Source of the DNA: Stutzerimonas decontaminans
GTDB lineage: Bacteria > Pseudomonadota > Gammaproteobacteria > Pseudomonadales > Pseudomonadaceae
DNA: 64,000 bases
Assembly: GCF_000661915.1 (NCBI RefSeq)
Contig: NZ_CP007509.1
Span: forward strand, 2,559,501 to 2,623,500
Reading direction: 5' to 3'
Below, one piece after another: positions 19,818 to 38,647 of this stretch. The notes beneath the pieces are model-generated. The model searched no databases, had not been told where the DNA came from, and was given only the letters and a program-made list of their open reading frames with translations. The stretch's first letter is position 1; each line of letters opens with the position of its first letter. Both the position numbers and the translations under genes were made by a program.

Positions 19818-20765
19818 TCAGGTATCCAGCTGACCGGCGAGAAACTGCCGCAGACGGCGCTGCATCAGCTTGCCGGAACTTCCCAGACAGGCGATCGGCG
19901 TACCGGCCAGGGCTTCACGCCCGAGTTCGGCCGCCTCGCCGGCCAGCGCCAGCGGGCAATCAAGGCCTAGCGAAAGCCTGTTGAGCTGACGCAGCTGCAC
20001 CTCGCCATGGGGAACGTTGGAGAACAGTACCAGCCCCTGAGGCTTCATCTTGTCGCAGACCAGCGCGAGTTCTTCCAGCGGTTGGCCGATCGGCAGCACG
20101 CTGATGGCGAGACTGTCGCCACTCAGCATCAGCCCTGCCACCAGCAGTTCCAGTTCGCGGCACTGGCCTGGCATTGCCGCGAGCAGTACCCGCTCGCAGG
20201 CTGGCATGCGGGCCAGTTGCAGGCGCTGCAGCACCCGTGCGCGCAGGAAGGCATCAAGGAACAACCACTCGCTGGTGCCGCCGAACTCGTCCTGGCGTAA
20301 CAAGAGTTCCTGCCAGACCGGCAACAGCACATCCTGAAACACCACGGCCAGCGGATAGGTGGAGAACACCTGGCCGTACAACTGCTCCAGGCGTACTTCG
20401 TCGAAGCCATTCACCGCTTCGCGCAGCTGCCCCTGCCATTCACCCCATTCGCCGCTGACGGTCGCGACCGGCTCCTCGGCTTCGCGAGTCGCCGCACTGC
20501 GGGCGAGTATGCTGCCTACCTTGCTAACCGCCACGCCGCGCTCGGTCCAGGAAAGGATGCTGCGAACCGCCTCCACATCAGCCATCGAATAGAGCCGGTG
20601 GCCGCTGTCGGTGCGCGTCGGGCGGATCAACCCGTAGCGACGCTCCCACGCACGCAAGGTGACCGGGTTTACGCCAGTCAGGCGGGCAACTTCGCGAATG
20701 GGGAAAAGCTCCTGCTGCTCGAACGCACTCGAGGACAGGGTCGAAGCGCCGGAGGATTCGGTCAT
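19818..20765 (-). CDS. MerR-family regulator, LitR/CarH-like without visible cobalamin ligands (MerR-1)
   Basis: This 315-residue protein has an N-terminal MerR winged helix (about 20-88: LFPIREVARLTGVNPVTLRAW, then ERRYGLIRPTR) and a C-terminal B12-binding-like fold. CarH needs histidines in the cobalamin region; at the matching place here the sequence reads PGQCRELELLVAGL, and no DxHxxG motif is found. This matches class II LitR proteins of pseudomonads, which sense light indirectly. The ATG at 20765 is chosen because the longer frame starts in the promoter region. It is divergent from the DUF393 gene across a TTGTACA-containing region and followed by pqqF. Confidence 0.85.
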   Translation of the reverse strand: MTESSGASTLSSSAFEQQELFPIREVARLTGVNPVTLRAWERRYGLIRPTRTDSGHRLYSMADVEAVRSILSWTERGVAVSKVGSILARSAATREAEEPVATVSGEWGEWQGQLREAVNGFDEVRLEQLYGQVFSTYPLAVVFQDVLLPVWQELLLRQDEFGGTSEWLFLDAFLRARVLQRLQLARMPACERVLLAAMPGQCRELELLVAGLMLSGDSLAISVLPIGQPLEELALVCDKMKPQGLVLFSNVPHGEVQLRQLNRLSLGLDCPLALAGEAAELGREALAGTPIACLGSSGKLMQRRLRQFLAGQLDT

Positions 20766-20814
20766 GAGGCGGCTCGCTGGAAAAGAATGCCGAGATTGTA
20801 ACCCAGCGTTTCGC

Positions 20815-20841
20815 AGCATACCCTCTACAAACGTTGTACAA
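20815..20841 (-). promoter_or_regulatory. Candidate LitR-controlled promoter of MerR-1
   Basis: On the minus strand TTGTAC (complement of 20836-20841), a 15-base spacer and TATGCT (complement of 20815-20820) have the same layout as the folE and epimerase promoters. The 11-bp direct repeat TCTACAAACGT / TGTACAAACGC (20824-20845, plus strand) overlaps it. This suggests autoregulation. Confidence 0.55.
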
Positions 20842-20858
20842 ACGCGAGATGCGATGAA

Positions 20859-21308
20859 ATGACTCCTGACCTCCCGCTGACGCTCTTCGTCGACCGCTCA
20901 TGCCCGCTGTGTGCCCGCGAAGTTCACTGGCTGGAGCGCAGCGCTGATCCTGCACGGCTGCTGCTGGTGGACATCAGCGCCGCCGACTTCTCCACCGCGG
21001 GGCTCGGCCGGGATTTAGCGCAGTTACGTCGTCGCCTGCACGCGCGCAGTGCCAGCGGGGCCTGGCTGACCGGCGTGGATGCCACCTACTGGAGCTGGCG
21101 CCTGGCCGGGCATGGTCGCTGGGCCGCGCCGCTTGGCTGGCGGCCGCTGCGCCCGTTCTTGCTGCTCGGCTACCAGCTGTTCGCTGTATTACGTCCGCAC
21201 CTGGACTGGCTGCCACACCCGGACGGCGCGAGTCGCTGCACCACCCAATGCAGCGCGCCGCAGCCCTCCTCGCCCGCCTCCGACAGCCAGGCGACCAAGC
21301 AACCCTAG
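20859..21308 (+). CDS. DUF393/DCC family thiol-disulfide oxidoreductase-like protein
   Basis: This 149-residue protein has the DCC-family motif: DRSCPLC at residues 12-18 carries the CPxC pair, followed by a central HARSASGAWLTGVDA strand and a hydrophobic WRPLRPFLLLGYQLFAVL region. Members are thioredoxin-like and of uncertain function. The C-terminal 25 residues are low-complexity (Ser, Pro, Gln). The gene is divergent from MerR-1 and may respond to the same light operator. The ribosome-binding site is poor. Its end overlaps the convergent DUF6482-like gene by four bases. Confidence 0.75.
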   Translation: MTPDLPLTLFVDRSCPLCAREVHWLERSADPARLLLVDISAADFSTAGLGRDLAQLRRRLHARSASGAWLTGVDATYWSWRLAGHGRWAAPLGWRPLRPFLLLGYQLFAVLRPHLDWLPHPDGASRCTTQCSAPQPSSPASDSQATKQP

Positions 21309-21619
21309 CTTTCGGCAACCAGCGGCATGCGCAGACCGCACTCTGGCTCAACCGCTGACGGGCGACCAATCATTTCGTCATGGCTGACTGGCTGCCGCCA
21401 GTAGACCTCACGCACACCGCAGGCCTGCAGCGCTCGCTTCAAGCTGCCCTGATCACTCCAGACCGTGCGCTGGCCCTCGCTGAACTGCCGCCGGTTACCG
21501 TTGCGTTCGACCACCCAGGCGCTGTAGCCACAGCAGCGCAGGCCATGCAACTCGACCCGATCTATCCGGCCTCTGCACAGTGCGAAGCGCAGCCCAAGCT
21601 TGGAAAGTTTGTTGTTCAA
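21305..21619 (-). CDS. Small DUF6482-like pseudomonad protein
   Basis: This 104-residue protein has no signal or membrane segment. The pattern SEGQRTVWSDQGSLKRALQA followed by SHDEMIGRP resembles the small pseudomonad family annotated DUF6482; the function is unknown. The start appears to be TTG at 21619, because the frame is closed by a stop a few codons upstream and no ATG fits. A TGTACA lies at 21632-21637, only 13 bases upstream, so it is too close to be a normal -35 for this gene. Confidence 0.55.
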   Translation of the reverse strand: MNNKLSKLGLRFALCRGRIDRVELHGLRCCGYSAWVVERNGNRRQFSEGQRTVWSDQGSLKRALQACGVREVYWRQPVSHDEMIGRPSAVEPECGLRMPLVAES

Positions 21620-21631
21620 GGTCCCAATACC

Positions 21632-21637
21632 TGTACA
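21632..21637. promoter_or_regulatory. Additional TGTACA half-site between DUF6482 and folE genes
   Basis: A lone TGTACA within cTTGTACAGG (read on the minus strand) sits 91 bases upstream of the folE operator. It may be an auxiliary binding site. No second half-site at 12-base spacing is found. Confidence 0.3.
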
Positions 21638-21726: not shown

Positions 21727-21753
21727 TTGTACAATATCAATTGTTCGTATAGC
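21727..21753 (+). promoter_or_regulatory. Candidate LitR-controlled promoter of the folE operon
   Basis: TTGTAC at 21727-21732, 15 bases, and TATAGC at 21748-21753. Within it TGTACA-N12-CGTATA differs by one base from the class II LitR consensus T(G/A)TACA-N12-TGTA(C/T)A as I recall it. A 19-base block beginning TTTACTTGTACAA (21722-21740) matches the DUF523 upstream region at 17 of 19 positions. Confidence 0.65.
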
Positions 21754-21828: not shown

Positions 21829-22386
21829 ATGAACGATTTGCCTGGTCATTACCGCGAAATACTGTCCGGGGTAGGCGAAGACCCGGAGCGCGAGGGTCTG
21901 CGCGATACGCCGTTGCGTGCGGCGAAGGCCATGCAGTACCTGTGCGGCGGCTACAACCGCAGCCTGGAAGAAGTGGTCAATGGCGCACTGTTCGCCTCTG
22001 ACAATGACGAGATGGTCATCGTCAAGGACATCGAGCTGTACTCGCTGTGCGAGCACCACATCCTGCCCTTTATCGGCAAGGCGCATGTCGCCTATATCCC
22101 CACCGGCCGCGTGCTGGGGCTGTCCAAGGTGGCGCGGATCGTCGACATGTACGCTCGCCGCCTGCAGATCCAGGAAAACCTGACCCGTCAGATCGCCGAA
22201 GCCATTCAGGAAGTCACCGGCGCCGCCGGTGTTGCGGTGGTCATCGAAGCCAAGCACATGTGCATGATGATGCGCGGTGTGGAAAAGCAGAATTCGGTGA
22301 TGAACACCTCGGTGATGCTTGGCGCCTTCCGCAGCTCCTGCAATACGCGGATGGAATTCCTTCAGCTGATCGGGAGGGGGCAGTGA
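21829..22386 (+). CDS. folE: GTP cyclohydrolase I
   Basis: This 185-residue enzyme converts GTP to 7,8-dihydroneopterin triphosphate, the first step to folate and pterins. Zinc and active-site residues are visible in [11 protein letters not shown] (Cys and two His) and in [11 protein letters not shown] (second zinc Cys). The length fits the zinc-dependent type IA enzyme. The ATG at 21829 follows AAGG/GAG; the frame is open farther upstream into the promoter, so longer calls are wrong. It heads a coupled operon (folX, chalcone-isomerase-like, MFS, DUF3833, then LOV). The promoter carries a LitR-type operator. In a light regulon its product could feed folate or a photolyase chromophore. Confidence 0.95.
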
Positions 22387-22757
22387 TGCCGCGCCTGGAA
22401 CCGGGCATGGCGCGCATCCGAGTAAAGGACCTGCGCCTGCGCACCTATATAGGTATCAACGAGGACGAGATCCTCAATCGCCAGGATGTGCTGATCAACC
22501 TGAGCATCCTCTACCCGGCGGTGGAAGCGGTGCGCGACAACGACATCGGACAGGCGCTCAACTATCGCACCATCACCAAAGCGATCATTCGTCATGTGGA
22601 GCAGAACCGCTTTGCCCTGCTCGAGCGCATGACCCAGGAGATCCTCGATCTGGTGATGGCGCATCCTGCGGTGAGCTATGCCGAAGTGGAAGTCGACAAG
22701 CCTCATGCGCTGCGTTTTGCCGATTCCGTTTCGATCACGCTCGCCGGCAGTCGCTGA
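22386..22757 (+). CDS. folX: Dihydroneopterin triphosphate 2'-epimerase (FolX)
   Basis: This 123-residue protein closely matches E. coli Fol[19 protein letters not shown] at the start, [20 protein letters not shown] in the middle and [18 protein letters not shown] at the end. FolX epimerises dihydroneopterin triphosphate to the monapterin form, used in Pseudomonas as a hydroxylase cofactor precursor. The start ATG overlaps the folE stop by one base, so the two steps are translationally coupled. A FolB aldolase is the related alternative, but the motifs fit FolX better. Confidence 0.93.
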
Positions 22758-22765: not shown

Positions 22766-23287
22766 ATGAGCAGCCGCCGAAACGTCATCATCGCCAGCCT
22801 GCTATGCCTGCTGCCGATGCTTGCGGCTGCCAACTGGCGCGAGTCCGTGCCCCAGGCTCGCCTGGTCGGTGAAGGTGAGCTGCGCTTCTTCGGTTTCCGC
22901 ATCTATGACGCTCGGCTGTGGAGCGAACAGGCGCCGCTGCAAGCCCAGGCGCCGTTCGCGCTGGAACTGACGTATCACCGTTCCATCAGCCGCGAAGACT
23001 TCGTGCGCACCAGCCTCGAAGAAATCCAGCGGCTCTCCGGCGAGCCGGCCGATTCCCCGCGCCTGCGCCAGTGGCGCGCAGAGATGCAGCGGGCCTTCGT
23101 CGATGTCACGCCGGGTGAGCGCATTACCGGTGTCTTTCTGCCCGGTCGCGGCTGCCGCTTCTACGTGAATGATCGACTGCAGCATGAAGTAGCCGACCCC
23201 GCCTTCGCCGATGCCTTCTTCGCCATCTGGCTCGACCCGCGCAGTCGCGACCAGAAGCTGCGGCGCAACCTGCTGGGCGAACGGTGA
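22766..23287 (+). CDS. Chalcone isomerase-like exported protein
   Basis: This 173-residue protein has a signal peptide (MSSRRN, hydrophobic core, cleavage near LAAA-N) and the bacterial chalcone-isomerase-like pattern: GEGELRFFGFRIYDARLW, then LELTYHRSISREDFVRTSLEEI. These bacterial proteins probably do not isomerise flavonoids; several sit beside fatty-acid-modifying genes and may bind lipids in the periplasm. It follows folX after 8 bp and overlaps the MFS gene by 4 bases. In other gammaproteobacteria, as I recall, this family travels with DUF3833 and CFA-synthase genes. Confidence 0.8.
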   Translation: MSSRRNVIIASLLCLLPMLAAANWRESVPQARLVGEGELRFFGFRIYDARLWSEQAPLQAQAPFALELTYHRSISREDFVRTSLEEIQRLSGEPADSPRLRQWRAEMQRAFVDVTPGERITGVFLPGRGCRFYVNDRLQHEVADPAFADAFFAIWLDPRSRDQKLRRNLLGER

Positions 23288-24522
23288 AGAGCGCGGCGCT
23301 GGCAGCCTATGGCGTGCTCGGCCTGCCGCTGGCGATGGCCATGCTGCCGATCTACGTGCTGGTGCCAAACTTCTACGCGGCGGACCTCGGGCTGGGTCTG
23401 GCTCTGACCGGCACGGTGCTGTTTCTTGCCCGCTTGCTGGACACCGTGCAAGACCCCTGGCTAGGCCGCTTCATCGACCGCCGTTCGCCACGTGGCTGGA
23501 CCATCATGCTGGCCGGCTCGGCCATCCTGCTGAGCCTGGCAATGGCGGCGCTGCTGATTCCGCCGGTGCGCCTTGGCAGTTTCAGCCTTGCCTTCTGGCT
23601 CGGTGCATTGCTCGCCCTCACCTACACCCTGCACAGCCTCGTCAATATCACCTACCTGGCTTGGGGTGCACGCCTCTCCGATCAGCCTCACACCCGCACC
23701 CGGGTCGCCGCCTGGCGCGAAGGCGCGGGGCTTTTCGGCGTGGTTCTGGCCAGCGTGCTGCCCAGCGTACTGGCGACGCAGTACGGCATGGCCGCGGCGC
23801 TGACGACCTTCGCCGCCACATTCGCCGCACTGCTGTGTATCGGCGCCGCTGTACTCTTGCTGGCCGCACCCAGGCCACAGCGAATCGCACGCACCACCGC
23901 CGGAAGCTGGCGCCTGCCGCTGCGCAACCCGGCGTTTCGGCGGTTGGCGGGCGTCTATTTCATCAACGCCGTGGCGGTAGCGATTCCAGCCACTCTTGCG
24001 CTGTTCTTCATTGCCGACCGGCTGCAACTGGCGCAACTGACCGGACTGTTCCTGGCACTGTATTTCGTTAGCGGCGCCCTTGGTCTGCCGTTCTGGACGC
24101 GCCTGGCCGATCGCCTGGGTAAGCGGCGTAGCTGGCGGATCGGCATGCTCACCGGTTGCGCCGCCTTCATCTGGGCAGTGCTACTGGAGCCCGGCTCCGC
24201 CTGGGCCTATGCCGGCGTCTGCGTGATGTCGGGCCTCGCCCTCGGCGCGGACCTGGCCCTGCCACCGGCCTTGCTGGCGGACATCATTCCTGCGGATGAG
24301 CGCGACTCGACTGCCGCCTACTTCGGTCTATGGAGCTTTCTCGCCAAGCTGGCGCTGGCCATCGCCGGCCTCGCCTTGCCGCTGTTGGCATTAAGCGACT
24401 ACCAACCGGGCACACCGGCCGGCTGGAACCTCGCACTGGTCTACGCCGGCCTGCCCTGCCTGCTGAAGCTCGTGGCGGCGCGCCTGCTCACTTCCCTTCC
24501 CTGCGGAGAACCCAAACCATGA
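23284..24522 (+). CDS. MFS transporter, MelB/GPH-like
   Basis: This 412-residue protein has about twelve hydrophobic segments. The N-terminal LARLLDTVQDPWLGRFIDRRS block is the hallmark of the glycoside-pentoside-hexuronide (MFS_2) group. In eukaryotic relatives (MFSD2A) the group moves lysolipids, so a lipid substrate is conceivable given the neighbours; this is inference. The start is GTG at 23284, overlapping the previous gene by four bases, and its stop overlaps the DUF3833 start by the ATGA arrangement. Confidence 0.82.
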   Translation: MKSAALAAYGVLGLPLAMAMLPIYVLVPNFYAADLGLGLALTGTVLFLARLLDTVQDPWLGRFIDRRSPRGWTIMLAGSAILLSLAMAALLIPPVRLGSFSLAFWLGALLALTYTLHSLVNITYLAWGARLSDQPHTRTRVAAWREGAGLFGVVLASVLPSVLATQYGMAAALTTFAATFAALLCIGAAVLLLAAPRPQRIARTTAGSWRLPLRNPAFRRLAGVYFINAVAVAIPATLALFFIADRLQLAQLTGLFLALYFVSGALGLPFWTRLADRLGKRRSWRIGMLTGCAAFIWAVLLEPGSAWAYAGVCVMSGLALGADLALPPALLADIIPADERDSTAAYFGLWSFLAKLALAIAGLALPLLALSDYQPGTPAGWNLALVYAGLPCLLKLVAARLLTSLPCGEPKP

Positions 24523-25046
24523 AAAAGGTCCTGATACTGGCGTGCTGCCTGCTCCTGCTCAGCTGCACCGCAGTCGACGTCGAGCATTACCGCAACGAGG
24601 AACCGCAGCTGGACCTGCGTAAATACTTCGTTGGCAAGGTCGACGCCTGGGGCATGTTCCAGAAGCGTTCCGGTGAGGTGGTGAAGCGCTTTCACGTCGA
24701 GATCGACGGCAGTCTGGATGGCGACAAGCTGATTCTCGACGAACACTTCCGCTACAGCGATGGCACCACCCAGCAACGTGTCTGGACCCTCACCGAAGAA
24801 CGCCCCGGTCACTGGCGCGGCACCGCTGCCGACGTGGTTGGCGAAGCTCATGGCGAAGTGGCCGGCAACGCGCTGCGCTGGCGCTATGTGCTCAGCCTGC
24901 CGGTGGATGACAAGGTCTACGACGTGCATCTGGATGACTGGATGTATCTCATCGACGAACACACCCTGGCCAACCGTTCGTTCATGAGCAAGTTCGGCGT
25001 CGAGGTGGGTCAGGTCACGCTGTTTTTCCGCAAGCGCATCGAATGA
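24519..25046 (+). CDS. DUF3833 family lipoprotein
   Basis: This 175-residue protein has a lipoprotein signal peptide with lipobox LLSC at Cys16; the next residue is Thr, not Asp, so outer-membrane sorting is expected. The mature part reads like DUF3833: LDLRKYFVGKVDAWGMFQKRSG, then WTLTEERPGHWRG and DWMYLIDEHTLANRS. The fold is probably lipocalin-like. The family co-occurs with chalcone-isomerase-like and CFA-synthase genes in light- or stress-linked lipid clusters. It is coupled to the MFS gene. The LOV gene follows after 85 bp. Confidence 0.82.
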   Translation: MKKVLILACCLLLLSCTAVDVEHYRNEEPQLDLRKYFVGKVDAWGMFQKRSGEVVKRFHVEIDGSLDGDKLILDEHFRYSDGTTQQRVWTLTEERPGHWRGTAADVVGEAHGEVAGNALRWRYVLSLPVDDKVYDVHLDDWMYLIDEHTLANRSFMSKFGVEVGQVTLFFRKRIE

Positions 25047-25131: not shown

Positions 25132-25578
25132 ATGATCAATGCCAAGCTGCTGCAACTGGTTATCGAAGCCTCCAACGATGGAATCGTGGTCGCCGAGCAG
25201 GAAGGCGACGACAACATCCTGATCTACGCCAACCCGGCCTTCGAACGCCTGACTGGCTACGCGGTCGACGACATCCTCTACCGCGACTGTCGCTTCCTGC
25301 AGGGCGAGGACCGGGACCAGGCTGGGCTGCAGGCGATCCGCGAGGCGGTGAAGAGCAACCAGCCCTGCCGCCAGATCATTCGCAACTACCGCAAGGACGG
25401 CACACCGTTCTGGAACGAGCTTTCCATTACCCCGGTGTTCAACGAGGCCGATCAGCTGACCTACTTCATCGGTATCCAGAAGAACGTCACCGCCGAAGTC
25501 GATGCCCTGCAGCGGGTCGAAGCGCTAGAAGCCGAAATACGCGACCTCAAGGAGCAGATCGCCCGCAGCCAGGGCTGA
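25132..25578 (+). CDS. Short LOV blue-light photoreceptor
   Basis: This 148-residue protein is a single LOV/PAS core with a C-terminal helix and no effector domain. The flavin-binding signature is YRDCRFLQG, with the adduct-forming Cys at residue 53 and the following RFLQ that holds FMN. NYRKDGTPFWNEL and YFIGIQKNVT are the other conserved LOV strands. It is strikingly similar in pattern and cysteine position to the P. putida short LOV protein PpSB1-LOV. In P. putida, as I recall, such a protein relieves repression by a class II LitR regulator in blue light. The gene ends the folE operon; the 85-bp gap may hold its own promoter (TAGAAT at about 25096-25101). Confidence 0.92.
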   Translation: MINAKLLQLVIEASNDGIVVAEQEGDDNILIYANPAFERLTGYAVDDILYRDCRFLQGEDRDQAGLQAIREAVKSNQPCRQIIRNYRKDGTPFWNELSITPVFNEADQLTYFIGIQKNVTAEVDALQRVEALEAEIRDLKEQIARSQG

Positions 25579-25767: not shown

Positions 25768-28428
25768 TTGACTCTAAATTCAGTTGTAGAAAACGCAGTC
25801 ATACTGCTCGCGTTGTGCTGGCTGCTGGCTTTCACCACATGCGAATGGAACCGCAGCGCAAAGCTCTCTGCAAAACTGTTGGCCGGACTCTGGTTTGGCA
25901 GTGCCTGCGTCTTCGGCATGATGATCACCAGCGTCGGCCAGAGCGGCATCATCCTCGATGCACGCACCGTGGTGCTGAGCATGGCCGGTCTGTTCGGCGG
26001 CCCCTTGGTGGCCGGGACAGCCGGCATGCTGGCAGCGGCCTACCGTTTATGGATTGGTGGCGTTGGGGTAATTCCCGGGCTCGGGAACATCCTGCTTCCT
26101 ATCGTGCTTGGCCTCACCTACCGCTTTCTCCTTCAACGAGGTTTGGTACGTCTCGGCTTTTGGCAATTGCTCGCTTTTGGCATGCTGCTGCACATCGGTG
26201 TACTGCTGGTACTGACGGCGCTGATGCCCGGTCATCTCCGTATCCTGGCCTTGAAAGACGCCGCGGCGCCGATGCTGCTGGCCTTACCCCTTGCAACCGT
26301 TGCCCTGGGCCTGCTGCTCAATGATCTGCTCAAGCGCGACCAGGTCGAGCGTGCACTGCGCCTGAGTGAAGCCCGGCTACGCGCCATCACCCACGCAATA
26401 CCCGATCTGCTACTGGTCATCGACGAAGATGGCTGTTATCTCGACATCATCTGCGCCGATCGCAGCATGCTCTACGCTGATCCGAGCCTGCTGCTCGGGC
26501 GACACCTGCACGACGTGATGCCGCAAGCCGAAGAACACCGCTTCCTCGAGTTCATCCGACAAACCCTCGACAGCGATACCCCGCAGTTGATCGAGTACAG
26601 CATGCCTACCCTTGGCGGCAGCAAGGTATTCGAGGGGCGTGCCCTGCCGCTGGAACAGCCGCAAGGACAGAAGCGTGCCGTGGTCTGGCTGAGCCGCGAC
26701 ATCACTGAACGGGTCAACACCGAACTGGAGCGCCGGATCGCCGCTATCGCCTTCGAATCACAGCAGGGCATGCTGATCACCGACGCGCAAAGCCGCATCC
26801 TGCGCGTCAATCGCGCCTTCACCCGTATCAGCGGCTTCAGCGCCGAAGAAGCCATTGGCAACACCACTGCCCTGCTCGGCTCGGGCAAGCATGGCCCGGA
26901 CTTCTATCGCACGATGTGGGCGGGTATCGAGGCAACCGGGGCTTGGGAAGGCGAGATCTGGAACCGGCGCAAGAGCGGGGAAATCTTCCCCGAGTGGCTG
27001 ACCATCAGTGCGGTGCGCAACACCGCCGGCGAGATTACCCACTATGTCGCGGCCTTCACCGATATCACCGATCGCAAGGCGGCCGAGGAGCGCATTCATC
27101 ACCTGGCGTTCTACGACCCCCTGACCGGCCTGCCGAACCGCCGACTGTTGCTCGATCGTCTGCAACAGGCCATGGCCGCCAGCTGCCGCAGCGAGCAGCT
27201 GGGCGCCTTGATGTTCATCGACCTGGACAACTTCAAGAACATCAATGATCTGCACGGACACCAGACTGGCGATCAGGTACTGCGTATCGCCGCCGAACGC
27301 CTGCAGAACGAAGTGCGCGCCAGCGACACGGTGGCACGTCTCGGTGGCGACGAATTCGTGGTCATGCTGGAGAACCTCGGTGACGCCCCGGAGCTTGCCG
27401 CAGCGCAGGCCGAACATATCGGCATGAAGCTGCTCAACTCTCTCGGAAAGCCCTATCGACTGAATGATCTGGGGCTGTATAGCAGCGCCAGTATCGGCGT
27501 CGTGCTGTTCGGCGCAGACGGCAGCAGTAGCGATGAGCTGATGAAGCGCGCCGACATGTCGATGTACGAGGCCAAGGTATCGGGCAAGAACGCGTTGCGC
27601 TTCTTCGACCCGCGCATGCAACAGGCCGTGCAGGAACGCCTGCACCTTGAAAACGAGATCCGTCAGGGACTGAAGAACGGCGAGTTCATCCTGCATTATC
27701 AGGCACAGCTGGAGCAGTCGCAGGGCATCGTCGGTGCCGAAGCACTGGTGCGCTGGCTGCATCCGCAACGTGGGCTGCTGGCGCCAGGCGCGTTCATCAG
27801 CCAGGCGGAGCACGCTGGCCTGATCCAGGCGCTCGACCAGCGTGTACTCGAACAGGCTTGCGCCGAGCTGGCGCTGTGGGCAGAGCAGCCAGCTCTGGCG
27901 CAGCTGACCCTGTCGGTGAACCTCAGCGCAAACCTGCTATACGAGGACAACTTCGTCGGTAGCCTGCTCGAACTGTTGGAGAGCAGCGGCGCCAATCCGG
28001 CCCGGCTCAAGCTGGAACTGACCGAGACGCTGCTGCTGGACAACATGCCCGAAGCGATTGCCCGGATGACGCAGCTCAAGAACCACGGTATCCGCTTCTC
28101 CATCGACGATTTCGGCACCGGCTATTCGTCGATGAGCTATCTGCAGCAGCTACCGCTGGATCAGCTGAAAATCGATCAGAGCTTCGTCCGTGGCCTGCCC
28201 GAGGATACCAACAGCCTCACCATCGTCCGAGCAACCTGCGCCCTGGCAGCGGGGCTGAATCTGGAAGTCATTGCCGAGGGCGTTGAAAGCGAAGCCCAGC
28301 GCGCGATGCTGCTCGCCAACGGCTGCCACCGTTTTCAGGGCTACCTGTTCGGCAAGCCACTGGCGTTGGGGGCGTTCGAGCAGATGGTGATGGCCGACCG
28401 CGCCGAGAGACAAGCCAGCCGCTCCTGA
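25768..28428 (+). CDS. Membrane GGDEF-EAL protein with 5TM-LYT-like sensor and two PAS domains
   Basis: This 886-residue protein has an N-terminal 5- to 6-helix membrane sensor (about 1-190, 5TM-5TMR_LYT style: SMAGLFGGPLVAGTAGMLAAA), a PAS domain (about 205-320), a second PAS (about 325-440), a GGDEF domain with intact RLGGDEF near 530, and an EAL domain with EALVRW near 660, SIDDFGTGYSS and IAEGVE. Both the diguanylate cyclase and phosphodiesterase signatures are intact, so it may be bifunctional for c-di-GMP. The start is TTG at 25768; no ATG fits the membrane segment. It is a single-gene unit between the LOV gene and convergent hemH. Confidence 0.9.
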   Translation: MTLNSVVENAVILLALCWLLAFTTCEWNRSAKLSAKLLAGLWFGSACVFGMMITSVGQSGIILDARTVVLSMAGLFGGPLVAGTAGMLAAAYRLWIGGVGVIPGLGNILLPIVLGLTYRFLLQRGLVRLGFWQLLAFGMLLHIGVLLVLTALMPGHLRILALKDAAAPMLLALPLATVALGLLLNDLLKRDQVERALRLSEARLRAITHAIPDLLLVIDEDGCYLDIICADRSMLYADPSLLLGRHLHDVMPQAEEHRFLEFIRQTLDSDTPQLIEYSMPTLGGSKVFEGRALPLEQPQGQKRAVVWLSRDITERVNTELERRIAAIAFESQQGMLITDAQSRILRVNRAFTRISGFSAEEAIGNTTALLGSGKHGPDFYRTMWAGIEATGAWEGEIWNRRKSGEIFPEWLTISAVRNTAGEITHYVAAFTDITDRKAAEERIHHLAFYDPLTGLPNRRLLLDRLQQAMAASCRSEQLGALMFIDLDNFKNINDLHGHQTGDQVLRIAAERLQNEVRASDTVARLGGDEFVVMLENLGDAPELAAAQAEHIGMKLLNSLGKPYRLNDLGLYSSASIGVVLFGADGSSSDELMKRADMSMYEAKVSGKNALRFFDPRMQQAVQERLHLENEIRQGLKNGEFILHYQAQLEQSQGIVGAEALVRWLHPQRGLLAPGAFISQAEHAGLIQALDQRVLEQACAELALWAEQPALAQLTLSVNLSANLLYEDNFVGSLLELLESSGANPARLKLELTETLLLDNMPEAIARMTQLKNHGIRFSIDDFGTGYSSMSYLQQLPLDQLKIDQSFVRGLPEDTNSLTIVRATCALAAGLNLEVIAEGVESEAQRAMLLANGCHRFQGYLFGKPLALGAFEQMVMADRAERQASRS

Positions 28429-30531: not shown

Positions 30532-30558
30532 CCTATACAGTGAAAACCGGCTGTACAG
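30532..30558 (-). promoter_or_regulatory. LitR-type operator/promoter of the TIGR01777 epimerase gene
   Basis: TATACA at 30534-30539, twelve bases, TGTACA at 30552-30557: an exact match to the class II LitR consensus as I recall it. Read on the minus strand, CTGTAC (30553-30558), a 15-base spacer and TATAGG (30532-30537) form the promoter, 61 bases before the ATG. Confidence 0.7.
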
Positions 30559-30682: not shown

Positions 30683-30780
30683 TGTACAAGAAAAACGCAC
30701 TTCCTTGTACATGCCCAGTTGACTTGTACAAGATCAAGATTAAGATAGCCTCAAGTTGTACAGAAATTCTGTTTGTACAA
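30683..30780 (+). promoter_or_regulatory. Cluster of five TGTACA sites upstream of the DUF523-MerR-phrB operon
   Basis: TGTACA occurs at 30683, 30706, 30725, 30757 and 30774, five times in 97 bp. TTGACT (30719-30724) with TAAGAT (30741-30746) at 16 bases is a reasonable sigma-70 promoter. The last two sites form a near-perfect palindrome around ACAGAAATTCTGT (30760-30772). Spacings are N13 and N11, not N12. The start codon of the DUF523 gene is 16 bases further on. Confidence 0.65.
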
Positions 30781-31757: not shown

Positions 31758-32693
31758 ATGACTGAACAACCGGACCTGGCGCAGCTGACCGCCGACGGCC
31801 TGCTGCCAATCCGCGAAGTGGCGCGTATCACCGGCGTCAATGCGGTAACCCTGCGCGCGTGGGAGCGCCGTTACGGCCTGATCGTCCCAGCGCGCACGGC
31901 CAAGGGCCATCGGCTTTACGAGGCCGGGCACGTCCAGCGTATCCGCGACATCCTGACCTGGCTCAACCGCGGCGTCGCGGTGAGCCAGATCAAGCCGCTC
32001 CTGGATACCACCACGCCGCCCGAGCTACCGCAGCAGAATCAGTGGTCCGAACTGGTAGATGAATTGCTGCAGGCCATCGACCGGCTCAGCGAACGCCACC
32101 TGGACGATGCCTTCAACCGTGCCATGGCGCTGTATCCGCCACGCACACTCTGTCAGCACCTGCTGCAACCTCTGCTGGCAGCACTCGACAAGCGCTGGCG
32201 CGGGCAATACGGCGCCGCGCTGGAGCGGGTGCTGTTTCAGTCGTGGCTGCGCAGCAAACTCGCAACCCGCATCTACTTCAACAACCGTCAGCAGAGCGGC
32301 CGCCCCCTGCTGATCGCCAGCCTCGACGAGGAGGCCTTCTCCCCCGGTCTGTGGCTGACCGCCTGGATGGTGTCCAGCACCGATTGCCCGGTTGAGCTCG
32401 TCGAGTGGGCGGTGCCGCTGAATGAACTCAACCTCGCCGTCGAACGCGTGTGGCCACGAGGGTTGCTGCTCTATGCCGGCAACTGCCTCTCTGCCAGCTG
32501 CCTGCAGCGCCATCTGCCGCGCCTGCTCGAGCAGAGCGCCGCACCGCTTCTGGTTGCCGGCCCAGCCGTACATATCCACGCCCCGGAGCTGCGTCAGCAC
32601 CGCGGCCTGCTGCTTGCTGACTGTCCGTTCGACGCTCTGCAGCAGCTTCACCACGCCGGCCTCCTGCCCGGCAGCGAAGGGAGCGCGTCATGA
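31758..32693 (+). CDS. MerR-family regulator, class II LitR-like (MerR-2)
   Basis: This 311-residue protein is a paralogue of MerR-1 (19818-20765). The N-terminal helix-turn-helix (LPIREVARITGVNAVTLRAW, then ERRYGLIVPARTAKGHRLY) is nearly the same in both, so both may read the same TGTACA operator. The C-terminal B12-like domain has no His-based cobalamin motif; the matching stretch reads ASLDEEAFSPGLWLTAWM. A light signal would therefore have to come from a partner such as the short LOV protein. It is cotranscribed with the DUF523 gene and phrB (4-base overlap). Confidence 0.88.
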   Translation: MTEQPDLAQLTADGLLPIREVARITGVNAVTLRAWERRYGLIVPARTAKGHRLYEAGHVQRIRDILTWLNRGVAVSQIKPLLDTTTPPELPQQNQWSELVDELLQAIDRLSERHLDDAFNRAMALYPPRTLCQHLLQPLLAALDKRWRGQYGAALERVLFQSWLRSKLATRIYFNNRQQSGRPLLIASLDEEAFSPGLWLTAWMVSSTDCPVELVEWAVPLNELNLAVERVWPRGLLLYAGNCLSASCLQRHLPRLLEQSAAPLLVAGPAVHIHAPELRQHRGLLLADCPFDALQQLHHAGLLPGSEGSAS

Positions 32694-34120
32694 CCCAGGT
32701 GATCTGGTTGCGCAACGATCTGCGCACAAGCGACAACACCGCGCTGGCCGCCGCCATGGCCGCAGGCCCTACTGTGGCGCTCTATCTGATCACGCCCGGC
32801 CAATGGCTCGCCCATGACGACGCTCCCTGCAAGGTCGACTTCTGGCTGCGCAACCTTGGCGAGCTGTCGGCGCAGCTGCGCGCGCTCAATGTGCCGCTAC
32901 TGATCCGTGAGGTCGAGGACTGGCAAGCCGTGCCTCATGCGCTGCTGAAGCTGTGCCGCGAGTTCGATGTGCAGGGCGTGCATTACAACGAAGAGTACGG
33001 CGTCAACGAACGGCGTCGGGATCGGGCCGTCGCGGCGCTACTGAGCGACTGCGGCATTCGCGTACGCGGACATGTCGATCAAGTGCTGTTTGCCCCGGGC
33101 AGCGTGCTGACCCAGTCAGGCGGTCACTTCAAGGTATACAGCCAGTTCCGCAAACAATGTCTCTCGCGTCTCGACGTGTCGTTGCCGCCATGTGTACCGT
33201 CGCCGGCAGCACAGGCACCGTTGGCGATCAGCAGCGACCCCGTTCCCACCGCCGTTGCCGGTTTCCCGCGGCCTACGGACTACCTGCGCGCGCTGTGGCC
33301 TGCAGGCGAAGCCTTCGCCCAGCGACGCCTGGCGCTGTTTGTCGAGGATGATCTCGACCAGTACCACGAACGCCGTGATCTTCCTGCCGAGCCGGGCACC
33401 AGCCAGTTGTCCGCCTACCTCGCCGCCGGCGTCATCTCGATCCGTCAGTGCCTGCACGCTGCACTCGGCTACAACCGCGGCGAGCTGGACAGCGGCAATA
33501 CCGGTGCCACCACCTGGATCAACGAGCTGCTCTGGCGCGAGTTCTACAAGCACGTGCTGGACGGCCACCCGCAGGTGTCGATGCACCGCGCTTTCCGCAG
33601 CGAAACCGACGCCCTGCCCTGGCGCCGTGCACCCTACGAACTCGAAGCCTGGCAGCAGGGGCGCACCGGGTTTCCGATTATCGATGCGGCGATGCGCCAG
33701 TTGCAGGAAACCGGCTGGATGCACAATCGCCTGCGCATGGTGGTCGCCATGTTCCTTAGCAAGAACCTGCTGATCGACTGGCGTGAAGGCGAGCGCTGGT
33801 TCATGCGTCATCTGATCGACGGTGACCTGGCCGCCAACAACGGCGGCTGGCAATGGAGCGCCTCCACCGGTACCGACTCGGTGCCCTACTTCCGGCTGTT
33901 CAACCCGATCAGCCAATCCCAGCGTTTCGATCCTGACGGCCAGTTCCTGCGCCGCTGGCTTCCCGAGCTGCAGCACCTGGACAAGCGCGACATCCACAAC
34001 CCGGCGGCGCACCGCAGCCTGTTCGGCGTAACGGAATATCCCGCGCCCATCGTCGATCTGGGCGCAAGCCGGGCGCGCGCGCTGGACGCGTTCCGCAATC
34101 TGTCGGAGGCCCGCCCATGA
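32690..34120 (+). CDS. phrB: Deoxyribodipyrimidine photolyase
   Basis: This 476-residue enzyme repairs UV-induced cyclobutane pyrimidine dimers using blue light and FADH-. The N-terminal antenna domain (about 1-150) starts VIWLRNDLRTSDNTAL. The FAD-binding helical domain contains LSAYLAAGVISIRQCL, WINELLWREFYKH, RTGFPIIDAAMRQLQETGWMHNR and GGWQWSASTGTD, all class I CPD photolyase hallmarks. It overlaps MerR-2 and the following SnoaL-like gene by four bases each. A cryptochrome is the alternative but less likely from these motifs. Confidence 0.96.
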   Translation: MTQVIWLRNDLRTSDNTALAAAMAAGPTVALYLITPGQWLAHDDAPCKVDFWLRNLGELSAQLRALNVPLLIREVEDWQAVPHALLKLCREFDVQGVHYNEEYGVNERRRDRAVAALLSDCGIRVRGHVDQVLFAPGSVLTQSGGHFKVYSQFRKQCLSRLDVSLPPCVPSPAAQAPLAISSDPVPTAVAGFPRPTDYLRALWPAGEAFAQRRLALFVEDDLDQYHERRDLPAEPGTSQLSAYLAAGVISIRQCLHAALGYNRGELDSGNTGATTWINELLWREFYKHVLDGHPQVSMHRAFRSETDALPWRRAPYELEAWQQGRTGFPIIDAAMRQLQETGWMHNRLRMVVAMFLSKNLLIDWREGERWFMRHLIDGDLAANNGGWQWSASTGTDSVPYFRLFNPISQSQRFDPDGQFLRRWLPELQHLDKRDIHNPAAHRSLFGVTEYPAPIVDLGASRARALDAFRNLSEARP

Positions 34121-34545
34121 GCAGCTTCCTGCATCGGTTCGCCGAGGAGTTCGCGCGGCTGGAGGCGAGCAATCTCGACCGACTCGCCGAACTCTACAGC
34201 GGCGACGTGCACTTCACCGATCCGCTGCACGAGGTCTACGGGCTGGCCGAACTGCGGCGCTACTTCAGCGAGCTGTACGCCAACGTCGAGCACCTGCATT
34301 TCGAGTTCATCAGCCACGACGAGGTGTGCGAGGGTCAGGGCTATCTGCGCTGGATCATGAGCTACCGTCATCCGCGTCTCAACGGCGGCGGGCTTATCAG
34401 CCTGGAGGGTTGCTCGCTGCTGCGCTGGAACGGCGAAGGCAAGGTCGAACGCCACCGCGATTACTTCGACGCCGGCGCCCTGCTCTACCAGCACGTGCCG
34501 CTGCTCGGCGGGGCGATCCGCTGGCTGCAACGGAGGCTCGCATGA
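34117..34545 (+). CDS. SnoaL-like/NTF2-fold protein
   Basis: This 142-residue protein has an NTF2-like fold pattern: FAEEFARLEASNLDRLAELYSGDVHFTDPLHEVYG, then a central FEFISHDEVCEGQ strand. Such proteins bind or transform small hydrophobic molecules. It is translationally coupled to phrB and to the following SDR gene. The family regularly sits in this SDR / FAD oxidoreductase / DUF1365 / CFA-synthase cluster, suggesting a part in lipid modification. No catalytic residue can be assigned. Confidence 0.8.
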   Translation: MSSFLHRFAEEFARLEASNLDRLAELYSGDVHFTDPLHEVYGLAELRRYFSELYANVEHLHFEFISHDEVCEGQGYLRWIMSYRHPRLNGGGLISLEGCSLLRWNGEGKVERHRDYFDAGALLYQHVPLLGGAIRWLQRRLA

Positions 34546-35309
34546 ACCTCTCACGGCGTATCTGGCTGACCGGCGCCAGCAGCGGCATCGGTCTGGAGCT
34601 GGCGCGTCTGCTGCTGGCCGAGGGTCATTGCCTGGCCCTGTCGGCACGCAGCGCCGGGCCACTGCAGGCCTTTGCCCGACGCTATCCGGGACGGGTCCTG
34701 GCGTTGCCCGGCGATCTCACCGACAGCGAGCAGGTACGCGCCATCGGCGCTGCGATCGAAGCGCAATGGGGTGCGCTGGACAGCGCGATCCTCAATGCCG
34801 GCAACTGCGAATACATCGACATAGAGCACTTCGAGGCGGCGCTGCTCGAGCGCGTGGTGCAAGCCAACCTGCTTTCGGCCGGCTACTGCATCGAGGCGGC
34901 GCTGCCCCTGCTGCGTCAGGGCGTGCGACCGCATCTGGTCGGTGTCGGCAGCTCGGTGACCTGGTTCGCGCTGCCTCGTGCCGGCGCCTACGGCGCATCC
35001 AAGGCCGCATTGCGCTATCTGCTCGAATCACTGCGGCTTGATCTGGCCAGTGAAGGCATCGACGTCACCCTGGTCAGCCCCGGATTCGTCGATACGCCAC
35101 TGACCCGCCGTAACGACTTCCCCATGCCACTGCGCTGGCCGGCGGACCGGGCTGCACGGCAGATCGCCCGACACCTCGAACGTCGCCCGCTGCACATCGA
35201 TTTCCCCGCGCCATTCATCTGGGCGCTGCGTCTGCTTTCACTTCTGCCCGCGCGCCTGCAGTTCGCCCTTGGCCGGCGAATGGCGCGCTCGCCCCTCAAG
35301 GAAGGTTAA
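34542..35309 (+). CDS. Short-chain dehydrogenase/reductase
   Basis: This 255-residue classical SDR has the NAD(P)-binding motif TGASSGIG (10-17), the LNAGN motif, the catalytic Ser in VGVGSSVTW and the YxxxK pair in YGASKAAL. The C-terminus is hydrophobic (FIWALRLLSLLPARLQFALG), suggesting membrane association. The ATG at 34542 overlaps the SnoaL stop. It lies in the photolyase-to-CFA operon, where it may reduce a modified acyl chain; the substrate is unknown. Confidence 0.9.
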   Translation: MNLSRRIWLTGASSGIGLELARLLLAEGHCLALSARSAGPLQAFARRYPGRVLALPGDLTDSEQVRAIGAAIEAQWGALDSAILNAGNCEYIDIEHFEAALLERVVQANLLSAGYCIEAALPLLRQGVRPHLVGVGSSVTWFALPRAGAYGASKAALRYLLESLRLDLASEGIDVTLVSPGFVDTPLTRRNDFPMPLRWPADRAARQIARHLERRPLHIDFPAPFIWALRLLSLLPARLQFALGRRMARSPLKEG

Positions 35310-35311
35310 CC

Positions 35312-36559
35312 ATGAAGATCGCCATCATCGGCAGCGGCATTTCCGGCCTCACCTGTGCCCACCTGCTTTCCCGCCAGCATCAGGTGACCGTATTCGAGTC
35401 GGCCAGCTGGATCGGAGGCCACACCCATACCGTGGACTTCCATCTACATGGTCGCGACTACGCCGTGGATACCGGTTTCATCGTCTTCAACGACTGGACC
35501 TATCCGAACTTCATCAAGCTGCTTGGGCAGCTCGGGGTGCGCTACAAGCCGACCGAGATGAGCTTCTCGGTCAGCGATCCGTTCAGCGACCTGGAATACA
35601 ATGGGCACGATCTCAATACCCTGTTCGCCCAGCGCAGCAACCTGTTCTCGCCGCCGTTCTGGGGGATGATCCGCGACATCCTCCGATTCAACCGCGAAGC
35701 GCTAGACGACTACCAGAATGGCCGCATCGGCCCGCATGTCACGCTGGGCAACTACCTCAAGCTCGGTCGCTACAGCCAGCGTTTCATCGATCACTACATC
35801 GTGCCCATGGGCGCGGCGATCTGGTCGATGTCGCTGGCCGATATGCTCGAGTTTCCGGTCGAGTTCTTCATCCGCTTTTTCAAGAACCACGGGCTGCTGT
35901 CGGTCAGCGATCGCCCGCAGTGGTACGTCATCGAGGGCGGCTCCAGCGCCTATGTTTCGCCGCTGACCAAGGGCTTCAGCGAACACATCCGCCTCAACTG
36001 CCCGGTGTTCGAGGTGCTGCGCGACGCCCACGGCGTGACCCTGCACAGCCCGGCAGGCGCCGAGCGTTTCGACAAGGTGGTGTTCGCCTGCCACAGCGAC
36101 CAGGCGCTACGCATGCTCGCCGAGCCTAGCCGGGCCGAGCGGGACATCCTCGGCGCACTCGGTTACGCCAGCAATGACGTGGTCCTGCACACCGACACCC
36201 GTCTGCTGCCCAAGCGGCGCCGTGCGTGGGCCAGCTGGAACTACCGGCTGGGCGGCCCGAGCGAACAGCTGGCGGCCGTGACCTACAACATGAACATCCT
36301 GCAGGGTATCGACTCGCCGGAAACCTTCTGCGTCAGCCTCAACCAGACCGACGCCATCGACCCGGAACAGATCCTCGCCCGCTTCACCTATGACCATCCG
36401 CAGTACAGCCTGGCCGGCATCGCCGCCCATGCCCGCGCCGACGAACTGCTCGGCGCGCACCATAGCTACTTCTGCGGCGCCTACTGGGGTAATGGGTTCC
36501 ATGAAGACGGCGTGGTCAGCGCATTGCGCGTCGCCGGCGCGTTCGGAGAGTCGCTGTGA
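35312..36559 (+). CDS. FAD-dependent oxidoreductase (amine-oxidase/desaturase-like)
   Basis: This 415-residue protein starts with the Rossmann FAD motif IIGSGISGLTCAHLLS (4-19), followed by FESASWIGGHTHTVDF and the C-terminal CGAYWGNGFHEDGVVSAL FAD-binding block. It belongs to the predicted NAD/FAD-binding group found beside CFA synthases and DUF1365 proteins in many bacteria. In furan-fatty-acid or light-linked lipid clusters this family may oxidise or desaturate the acyl chain; the exact reaction here is unknown. It follows the SDR gene by 2 bp and overlaps the DUF1365 gene by 4. Confidence 0.88.
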   Translation: MKIAIIGSGISGLTCAHLLSRQHQVTVFESASWIGGHTHTVDFHLHGRDYAVDTGFIVFNDWTYPNFIKLLGQLGVRYKPTEMSFSVSDPFSDLEYNGHDLNTLFAQRSNLFSPPFWGMIRDILRFNREALDDYQNGRIGPHVTLGNYLKLGRYSQRFIDHYIVPMGAAIWSMSLADMLEFPVEFFIRFFKNHGLLSVSDRPQWYVIEGGSSAYVSPLTKGFSEHIRLNCPVFEVLRDAHGVTLHSPAGAERFDKVVFACHSDQALRMLAEPSRAERDILGALGYASNDVVLHTDTRLLPKRRRAWASWNYRLGGPSEQLAAVTYNMNILQGIDSPETFCVSLNQTDAIDPEQILARFTYDHPQYSLAGIAAHARADELLGAHHSYFCGAYWGNGFHEDGVVSALRVAGAFGESL

Positions 36560-37371
36560 GCGCCGCCATCGAGCACAGCGCGCTGTATCGCGGCTGGGTG
36601 CAGCATCGGCGCTTCTCGCCGCGCGCCCACGCCTTCAGCTATCGCATGGGCCTGCTGTACCTCGATCTGGCCGAACAGGACGCCGTCTTCGGACTCTCGC
36701 CACTGAGCGGCCGCGCGCGCTTCGCGCCGTTCTCCTTCCGTGAACGCGACTACCTGCCGGAATACACCCGCCAGGGCATCGCTCTGGCCGATGCGGTCCG
36801 CCAGCGCGTTTCCGAGGCCCTCGGCCGTCCGGTCACTGGCGCCGTGCGTCTGCTGACCCAGCCGCGCAGCTGGGGGCTGTGTTTCAACCCGGTCAGCTTC
36901 TTCTATTGCTTCGATGAGCAGGAGCAGCTGGCAGCGGTGCTCTGCGAGGTCAGCAACACCCCGTGGCGCGAGCGCTATCACTACGTGCTGCCGGCCGCCG
37001 GCAATCGCAACCTGCGCTGCACAGTGGCCAAGACCTTCCATGTGTCGCCGTTCCTGCCGGGCAAACTGGAATACCGGATGCGTTTCAACCTACCGGGCCG
37101 GCGCATCGGCGTGCACATGGAGGACTGGCAAGGCGAGCGCAAGCTGTTCGATGCCACCCTCGGCCTGGAGCGTGAGGCACTGTCGCGCGGTGCGATACAC
37201 CGCTACCTGCTCGGTTTCCCCTGGATGACCGCCAAGACGCTGCTCGCCATCTACTGGCAAGCCTTGCGTCTGCTGCTCAAGCGCACCCCGATCTTCGCCC
37301 ACCAGCCCGCCAAGGCCCCCTACGGACTAGCCGTCACCCACACATCCGGAGCCCGCCATGAAGAGCACTAG
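36556..37371 (+). CDS. DUF1365 family protein
   Basis: This 271-residue protein has the DUF1365 pattern: SALYRGWVQHRRFSPRAHAF, VRLLTQPRSWGLCFNPVSF, FHVSPFLPGKLEYRMRF and a C-terminal hydrophobic PWMTAKTLLAIYWQALRLLLK helix that may associate with the membrane. The function is unknown; it is almost always next to a CFA synthase and an FAD oxidoreductase. The start is GTG at 36556, overlapping the previous stop, and its end overlaps cfa by 14 bases, so all these genes are coupled. Confidence 0.88.
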   Translation: MSAAIEHSALYRGWVQHRRFSPRAHAFSYRMGLLYLDLAEQDAVFGLSPLSGRARFAPFSFRERDYLPEYTRQGIALADAVRQRVSEALGRPVTGAVRLLTQPRSWGLCFNPVSFFYCFDEQEQLAAVLCEVSNTPWRERYHYVLPAAGNRNLRCTVAKTFHVSPFLPGKLEYRMRFNLPGRRIGVHMEDWQGERKLFDATLGLEREALSRGAIHRYLLGFPWMTAKTLLAIYWQALRLLLKRTPIFAHQPAKAPYGLAVTHTSGARHEEH

Positions 37372-38647
37372 CCTGACTGTCAAAGCCCGTCCACTGGCCG
37401 GCGTGGGGCTGGCCAGCGGTCTGTTGCGCCGCACTGTACTGCGTCAGCTGGAAAAGCTGCGCCACGGCCAGCTGACCTTGCGCGTCGGCGACGAGAGCCA
37501 GCTGTTCGGCGACCTGGCCAGCCCGCTGCAGGCTGAAATCCATATCGTCGACGGTGCCGCCTGGGGCCTGATCGCTGCCCGAGGCTCAATCGGCGCTGGT
37601 GAGGCCTACATCCATGGCTATTGGCACAGCCCGGACCTTACCGCGGTGATCCGCCTGTTCGTCGCCAACCTGGATGTGCTGGACAACATCGAGCGCGGCA
37701 GCCTCGCGCTGTTCGGCCAGCCGGTGATCAAGGCGCTGCACTGGCTCAATCGCAACACCCGTGCCGGTTCGCAGCGCAACATCGCCGCCCATTACGATCT
37801 CGGCAACGAGCTGTTCGAGCAGTTCCTCGACCCGACCATGATGTACTCGGCAGCGATGTTCACCTCCACCGAGCAGACTCTGGAACAGGCCCAGCTGCAC
37901 AAACTGGAACGCATCTGCGAGAAGCTCGATCTGCAGCCCGAGGACCATCTGCTGGAAATCGGCACCGGCTGGGGCAGCATGGCCCTCTATGCCGCCATCC
38001 ACCGTGGTTGCCGGGTGACCACCACCACGCTATCGCGCGAACAGTTCGCCTACACCCAGCGGCGCATCGAAGAACAGGGCCTGCAGGACCGCATCACCCT
38101 GCTACTCAAGGATTACCGCGACCTCGAAGGCCAGTTCGACAAGCTGGTGTCCATCGAGATGATCGAAGCGGTCGGCCATGATTTCCTGCCGACCTACTTC
38201 CGCCAATGCGCGCGCCTGCTCAAGGACGACGGCCTGATGTTGCTGCAGGCGATCACCATCCGTGACCAGCGCTACGAGCAGGCGCGGCGCAACGTCGACT
38301 TCATCCAGCGCTACATCTTTCCCGGCGGCGCTCTGCCGTCGATGCAGCGGATGCTCAATGTGGTGTCGCAGGACACCGACATGAACCTCCTGCACATGGA
38401 GGACTTTGGCGAGCATTACGCGCGCACCCTGCGCCTGTGGTACGAGAACTTCCGCCGCGCCCGCAGCGAGCTGGAGCGCCATGGCTACGACGACTATTTC
38501 TACCGGCTCTGGGAGTTCTACCTGTGCTACTGCGAGGGCGGCTTCATCGAGCGCGCCATCGGCACCGCACAGCTGCTGCTGGCCAAACCGGGCGCCCGTC
38601 GGAAACCGCTCTACGTCGCTTCAAGCGGCTCGAGCACCAACCGATAA
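37358..38647 (+). CDS. cfa: Cyclopropane-fatty-acid-phospholipid synthase family methyltransferase
   Basis: This 429-residue SAM-dependent enzyme adds a methylene group to unsaturated acyl chains of membrane phospholipids. The N-terminal lipid-binding domain (about 1-130) is followed by the SAM motif [12 protein letters not shown] (near 198-209), the substrate region [12 protein letters not shown] and [10 protein letters not shown] UfaM-like furan-fatty-acid methyltransferase is the main alternative, since in P. putida, as I recall, both types are light-induced. It ends the photolyase-lipid operon; the chemoreceptor gene follows after 31 bp and might be cotranscribed. Confidence 0.92.

Follow-up and report, generated by a model that had tools for sequence, protein, structure and literature searches.

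A compact class II LitR/short-LOV locus of Stutzerimonas decontaminans with a predicted light-responsive operator before hemH

A 19-kb region of Stutzerimonas decontaminans (positions 19818–38647 of the 64-kb stretch of DNA analyzed here, hereafter the window) carries a short LOV photoreceptor, two LitR-like MerR regulators and their likely targets. By comparison with characterized systems the locus is very probably the Stutzerimonas form, in an unusually compact arrangement, of the class II LitR/short-LOV light switch, and we infer on the same grounds that it is controlled by light in this organism. The switch itself is already known from Pseudomonas mendocina, where PmlR2, bound at TGTACA-N12-TGTACA, acts as a repressor in the dark and is lifted off the DNA by the blue-lit PmSB-LOV (PMC9758184). 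The new element is a separate operator pair before a TIGR01777-hemH unit, which predicts blue-light control of hemH. We place the locus in the class II LitR/short-LOV kind because the LOV protein with its Cys53, the regulators, the operator and the target set match. The operator T(G/A)TACA-N12-TGTA(C/T)A is found as a perfect pair before TIGR01777-hemH and with 11 of 12 matches before folE, and the likely targets phrB, ufaM and folE lie in the region, with a cryB-type gene elsewhere in the genome. The genes of the region are the following:

19818–20819, minus strand: MerR2, class II LitR-like repressor, counterpart of PmlR2 (Pfam MerR_1; CarH aligned over residues 34–265)
20859–21308, plus strand: DCC1-like thiol-disulfide oxidoreductase family protein (PF04134, 2e-18)
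21305–21619, minus strand: DUF6482 protein (PF20090, 4.3e-8)
21829–22386, plus strand: folE, GTP cyclohydrolase I (TIGR00063, 254.8 bits)
22386–22757, plus strand: folX, dihydroneopterin triphosphate 2'-epimerase (NF008418, 198.2 bits, cut-off 152)
22766–23287, plus strand: chalcone-isomerase-like protein, chi (PF16036, 8.9e-15)
23284–24522, plus strand: MFS transporter of the GPH type (PF13347, 7.8e-57)
24522–25046, plus strand: DUF3833 protein (PF12915, 6.8e-72)
25132–25578, plus strand: short LOV photoreceptor (148 amino acids, PAS/LOV only; Cys53 in DCRFLQ)
25768–28428, plus strand: GGDEF/EAL protein with 5TM-LYT sensor and PAS domains, between LOV and hemH
28465–29553, minus strand: hemH, ferrochelatase (TIGR00109, 231.6 bits, cut-off 124.6)
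29569–30495, minus strand: TIGR01777 family oxidoreductase (TIGR01777, 350.1 bits, cut-off 207.35; likely ATG at 30471)
30796–31755, plus strand: rudS-like gene, TudS desulfidase domain fused to DUF1722 (PF04463 residues 10–151, PF08349 residues 194–310)
31758–32693, plus strand: MerR1, class II LitR-like (MerR_1; B12-binding_2, 6.1e-5; CarH/LitR structures over residues 7–239)
32690–34120, plus strand: phrB, deoxyribodipyrimidine photolyase (NF007955, 542.3 bits, cut-off 506)
34117–34545, plus strand: SnoaL-like protein (PF12680)
34539–35309, plus strand: short-chain dehydrogenase, SDR (PF00106)
35312–36559, plus strand: FAD-dependent oxidoreductase (PF01593)
36556–37371, plus strand: DUF1365 protein of the UfaO type (PF07103)
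37358–38647, plus strand: ufaM-like methyltransferase of the cyclopropane fatty acid (CFA) family (PF02353)

The short LOV receptor is the only one in the 4.83-Mb genome; four other matches are 23–28% identical and lie in frames of 523–975 codons. Its product lacks an effector domain, possesses Cys53, has Sensory box proteins as best solved relatives and is 77% identical to the LOV protein of P. mendocina FFL34. LitR-like MerR proteins number exactly two in the genome, the next three matches being limited to 69–85 residues. The two had been called paralogous in the initial annotation, which agrees with their 33% identity over 284 aligned positions. MerR2 is 65% identical to a P. mendocina FFL34 protein over 317 amino acids, with 80% in the helix-turn-helix (HTH) part.

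The same parts and operator as in P. mendocina, where induction and anti-repression have been demonstrated (PMC9758184), bear out the regulon that had been proposed from the DNA sequence. P. mendocina NBRC 14162 likewise has two class II LitR proteins, one short LOV protein with Cys53, a phrB-ufaM operon that includes pmlR1, and folE-folX near pmlR2. PmlR2 binds to the operator and acts as a repressor in vitro, and lit PmSB-LOV binds the HTH part of PmlR2 and relieves the repression, while the C53A variant neither binds nor inhibits. Light induces pmlR1, phrB and ufaM about 6- to 33-fold and folM and folE 1.6- to 3.3-fold, pmlR2 rises 1.4- to 1.5-fold and the LOV gene shows no rise; folM carries TGTACA-N12-GGTATA, and a light-induced two-gene unit ends in cryB (all PMC9758184). 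The arrangement differs in that the pmlR1 and pmlR2 regions of P. mendocina stand at separate loci, whereas here both fall into 19 kb, folE lacks folM as a neighbour, folX is followed by chi-MFS-DUF3833, and hemH with an operator lies between (PMC9758184). P. putida KT2440 (PplR1-3; PpSB1-LOV, PpSB2-LOV) resembles our locus in its LitR-controlled phrB, ufaM, folE and cryB with a short LOV input, but possesses three LitR and two LOV proteins and targets spread over the genome (PMC9758184, PMC8508746).

Both MerR proteins align with CarH/LitR structures past the HTH part, MerR1 shows a weak B12-binding_2 match, and class II LitR has been called adenosyl-B12-dependent (PMC11417400), contrary to PMC9758184. 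These features would suit a scheme in which the MerR pair senses light itself through cobalamin, as class I LitR/CarH of Thermus and Bacillus megaterium does, with the LOV protein as a side partner. The MerR HTH and a CarH-like C-terminal part are indeed shared with class I. However, neither D-x-H-x-x-G nor W-x9-E-H, which we take to be the cobalamin ligand motifs of CarH, is found in MerR1 or MerR2, and cobalamin sensing by the pair was rejected on this basis. B12 is also not needed in P. putida (PMC9758184). Hence, we regard this scheme as extremely improbable and retain a LOV-driven switch.

Operator pairs were defined as T(G/A)TACA and TGTA(C/T)A with 11–13 bases between them and at least 11 of 12 matches. 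The window contains five of them, all in promoters of the 19-kb region and distributed over three promoter regions; 60 shuffled versions of the window averaged 0.12 pairs, and none reached five. The pairs, half-sites and a promoter-like site are (strand given where assigned):

20835–20840: single TGTACA half-site between merR2 and the DCC1-like gene (hexamer match)
21613–21637: operator pair TGTTCA-N13-TGTACA (11/12 matches)
21728–21751: operator pair TGTACA-N12-CGTATA before folE (11/12 matches)
30534–30557, minus strand: operator pair TGTACA-N12-TGTATA before TIGR01777-hemH, then GGTGTATGCT (perfect match)
30683–30688: additional TGTACA half-site upstream of rudS (hexamer match)
30706–30730, plus strand: operator pair TGTACA-N13-TGTACA over the rudS promoter (perfect match)
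30719–30746, plus strand: promoter-like TTGACT-N16-TAAGAT (promoter scan)
30757–30779, plus strand: operator pair TGTACA-N11-TGTACA between promoter and rudS ATG (perfect match)

The three perfect pairs are the sole ones in the 4,833,395-base genome, in which the reversed-pattern control found one place. For TGTACA alone the expectation in the window is 3.66 occurrences; it has 14, a count that 0 of 100 shuffles reached, and nine of the 14 lie inside the region. With pairs before folE and rudS, the earlier claim that both gene blocks share TGTACA-type operators is substantiated. At rudS, one half-site immediately follows the first hexamer TTGACT of the promoter-like site and the second pair precedes the ATG, which resembles P6650 of P. 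mendocina, where TGTACA pairs overlap the promoter and lie between start and ATG (PMC9758184). The argument from this promoter is one of position and not of number, because the promoter scan count is close to that of shuffled sequence. Outside the region, TGTACA stands at 6497, 6937, 45820, 49746 and 58958, and none of these belongs to a pair. A whole-genome scan allowing two mismatches was dropped as too noisy (195 places per strand against 154 for the reversed control); of its places with one mismatch, the one preceding the cryB-type gene was examined further.

We further analyzed the conservation of the operator in related loci, the named ones being the best 80 of 541 confirmed around LOV homologues and hence weighted to close relatives. 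Near-identical stretches were removed, TGTACA was ranked among the 64 palindromic hexamers, and the upstream stretches were measured from the alignment edge with the start codon unproven, and divergent genes share stretches. TGTACA ranks first upstream of rudS (17/17), DUF6482 (13/13), the DCC1-like gene (18/20), merR2 (26/58), chi (10/14), TIGR01777 (9/12) and SnoaL (9/16). It is not enriched upstream of hemH itself (2/15) or DUF3833 (3/11), and none was found upstream of merR1 (0/9), phr (0/14), SDR (0/16) and ufaM (0/9), which are genes inside operons. The LOV promoter was rejected as a regulon target, and membership of the GGDEF/EAL gene is unsupported (TGTACA upstream in 2/9). The latter gene keeps its place between LOV and hemH in loci of the same type as the window.

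Several points speak against the assignment to a LOV-driven class II LitR switch. TGTACA ranks only second upstream of folE (12/36 loci) and is not enriched upstream of LOV (4/60), the spacing of the rudS pairs is N13 and N11 instead of the N12 reported for P. mendocina, and the promoter scan, with four sites over 19.2 kb and 3.2 in shuffled sequence, shows no excess. MerR2 has no Pfam match to B12-binding_2 at 1e-3, a domain that PmlR2 possesses (PMC9758184), and the B12 dependence ascribed to class II LitR, mentioned above, belongs here as well. The weak or absent enrichment at the folE and LOV promoters, together with the other known or likely roles of hemH and the GGDEF/EAL gene, would also fit a chance neighbourhood in which only the rudS-ufaM operon responds to light. 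We consider this very unlikely in view of the five pairs in three promoter regions, the light response of folM and folE in P. mendocina (PMC9758184) and a gene order that recurs in five other loci, and we keep to the switch with targets in several units of the region.

The operator that goes beyond the P. mendocina model is the pair before TIGR01777-hemH, which stands 86 bases from the TIGR01777 ATG. Within the genus, 41 of 46 loci have a pair with 11 or 12 matches no further than 160 bases from TIGR01777: 38 of 39 where the gene faces rudS, 3 of 3 where it faces a FAD gene and 0 of 4 with other neighbours. The shuffle control for this pair gave 0.6% per sequence and is the fair control, since choosing the best pair raises the information content of the half-sites. 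Genomes of one genus are related; among the 38 rudS-facing loci that have a pair, 30 fall below 80% identity over the 160 bases. hemH lies downstream of TIGR01777 in 30/30 loci whose downstream flank was examined. In the wider family, a FAD-dependent amine-oxidase-like gene is often divergent to TIGR01777, and the pair is present in 40 of 53 loci classed as having this FAD gene. The FAD gene was likely the first client of the pair, because the distance from its start is fixed at 47–49 bases in 27 of these 40 loci. In S. decontaminans the FAD gene lies about 0.8 Mb away (1761713–1762690, L184), a locus without a pair of at least 11 matches; in many relatives it heads the rudS operon. We tentatively propose, short of an even call, that blue light acting via LOV and LitR would raise ferrochelatase and the TIGR01777 protein and so clear protoporphyrin IX in the same programme as DNA repair, 4-thiouridine removal and furan fatty acid formation, from an operator that first served the divergent FAD gene and was retained by the haem unit once the FAD gene had gone.

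The same evidence allows a different outcome, in which the core switch is right and the TIGR01777-hemH pair is a relic of the displaced FAD gene promoter or a distal rudS site, with hemH not under light control; this, too, is possible and a little below even. The fixed distance to the FAD gene suits such a relic, as does the lack of a pair in loci that place the haem unit next to other genes, L207 with hemH still adjacent included. Before hemH-first units a pair within 150 bases was found in 0/14 loci classed as lacking the FAD gene, a classing that is mechanical and misplaced some loci having this gene (L153, with two TGTACA further up), and the operator as a property of hemH itself was rejected accordingly. 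PP_0738-PP_0742 of P. putida rise together in co-culture, and the cited passage names no haem gene (PMC11014904). Against a relic or a distal rudS site, the pair is anchored to TIGR01777 (86.4 ± 7.4 bases) rather than to rudS (280 ± 96) in the 38 rudS-facing loci, and rudS has its own sites: 35 of the 38 have at least three half-sites within 140 bases. All 19 window-type loci (L188–L206, own genome included), moreover, preserve the pair and the GTGTATGCT that follows it towards TIGR01777, but have lost the FAD-side motif, which is present in 3 of 3 loci that retain the FAD gene. The proposed light control of the haem unit is weakened by the dependence of the pair on its neighbours just described, and also by rudS-facing loci of other make-up: seven of the 38 lack a -10-like motif after the pair, and nine keep the old FAD-side motif, six with the new one too and three with the old one only. 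Moreover, hemH must function in the dark, and a further promoter may be present in the 75 bases that separate hemH from TIGR01777.

Light control of hemH would be physiologically sensible, because cells that have lost hemH become sensitive to light through protoporphyrin IX (a Shewanella double mutant, and visA of E. coli cited there; PMC6664582). No report of light control of hemH in Pseudomonas was found by title or start of abstract, Sumi 2020 and supplements lying outside this comparison, and the literature search gave no paper on LitR with LOV in Stutzerimonas. A working haem operator would mean that a non-photosynthetic bacterium uses a flavin photoreceptor to adjust one step of haem synthesis, and it would bear on differences in blue-light sensitivity, because porphyrins are thought to be the target of blue light in bacteria (PMC8508746).

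Transferred to S. decontaminans, the switch would operate as follows. In the dark, the promoters of rudS, folE and TIGR01777-hemH would be silenced by MerR2, probably joined by MerR1, bound to the TGTACA pairs that lie over them. Upon illumination with blue light, a bond would form between Cys53 and the flavin of the LOV protein, and the lit protein would bind the HTH part of MerR2, which would then leave the DNA. Photolyase would become available for DNA repair, RudS for the removal of 4-thiouridine, the near-ultraviolet target in tRNA, and UfaM with its partners for the formation of furan fatty acids, which protect against singlet oxygen. The pterin synthesis genes would also be switched on, and TIGR01777-hemH is predicted to follow, turning the photosensitizer protoporphyrin IX into haem. 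For S. decontaminans we infer this entire sequence of events, including the role of MerR1 and the light control of hemH.

The genes listed initially (two MerR regulators, LOV, folE-folX, photolyase, the CFA-type block, chi-MFS-DUF3833 and hemH) are all present by domain and family profiles; the DUF6482, GGDEF/EAL and RudS-like genes were absent from that list. One name had to be changed. The presumed CFA synthase with SDR, FAD and DUF1365 partners does have these partners, but the protein at 37358–38647 stays below all CFA synthase cut-offs (best model 285.5 bits, cut-off 400). With its CMAS domain, its DUF1365 neighbour and a context as for ufaM of P. mendocina, it is better called a putative UfaM, as judged from sequence. 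A CFA-family methyltransferase with a DUF1365 partner resembles the UfaM/UfaO furan fatty acid pathway, in which UfaO carries DUF1365 and the furan fatty acid gives protection from singlet oxygen. UfaM/UfaO were studied in other bacteria, whereas here the candidate genes lie under LitR-type operators (PMC7380195). The photolyase operon begins with a gene for a RudS-type tRNA 4-thiouridine desulfidase with TudS and DUF1722 domains. The TudS-DUF1722 fusion defines the RudS family, which occurs in operons with LitR and PhrB (PMC11417400), a likeness that was judged by domain content.

By layout, the region divides into merR2 (minus strand), the DCC1-like gene (plus), DUF6482 (minus), folE-folX-chi-MFS-DUF3833 (plus), GGDEF/EAL (plus), TIGR01777-hemH (minus) and rudS-merR1-phrB-SnoaL-SDR-FAD-DUF1365-ufaM (plus). 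Genes of the folE-to-DUF3833 unit overlap or are separated by at most 9 bases, with the LOV gene 85 bases beyond, and the rudS-to-ufaM unit shows overlaps or 2-base gaps throughout. Some starts may differ from those listed: relatives suggest an ATG at 29493 for hemH, an ATG at 20765 would give MerR2 315 amino acids and a better fit to relatives, and the start codon of DUF6482 is uncertain, its listed TTG being overlapped by an operator.

The nearest named locus, of 'Pseudomonas songnenensis', encodes a 97% identical LOV protein and has 17 of 20 genes in the same order (20.4 kb compared). The order folE-folX-chi-MFS-DUF3833-LOV is found as here in 6 of the 80 loci (L009–L012, L020, L068), and the compact form is seen again at five other loci, of which four are titled as Stutzerimonas or as P. 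songnenensis-like relatives. In a further 10 of the 80 (L051, L060, L065, L070, L073, L075, L077, L078, L081, L088), chi stands beyond ufaM on the opposite strand, in nine together with DUF3833; P. putida-group loci have both genes beside ufaM, unlike here. Within one regulon, the lipid block can therefore belong to either of two operons, in line with the original suggestion that the lipid functions are divided over two operons. The same genes occur in many orders across Pseudomonadaceae, and this repeated reshuffling together with operators provides a natural test of which promoters matter. With the sensor, both repressors and most targets in one 19-kb piece, the locus is also handy for deleting or moving the whole response.

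Half-sites before rudS (30683–30779 here; L009, L010, L011, L012, L068) keep near-fixed distances of about 22, 39, 71 and 90 bases with spacings of N11 and N13, and at L077:17742–17786 three TGTACA follow each other in steps of 19–20 bases upstream of the chalcone-isomerase-like gene. The genome contains a second folE copy (two folE genes in total), and the cryB-type gene lies about 1.7 Mb away, preceded by a second DUF6482 gene (PF20090, 1.2e-22) with TGTACA-N12-TGTTCA, one mismatch, 56 bases before it (L187:1072–1095; genome 916237–916260). Elsewhere in the window, a TwoAYGGAY RNA motif is found at 60482–60548 (44.2 bits, gathering score 43).

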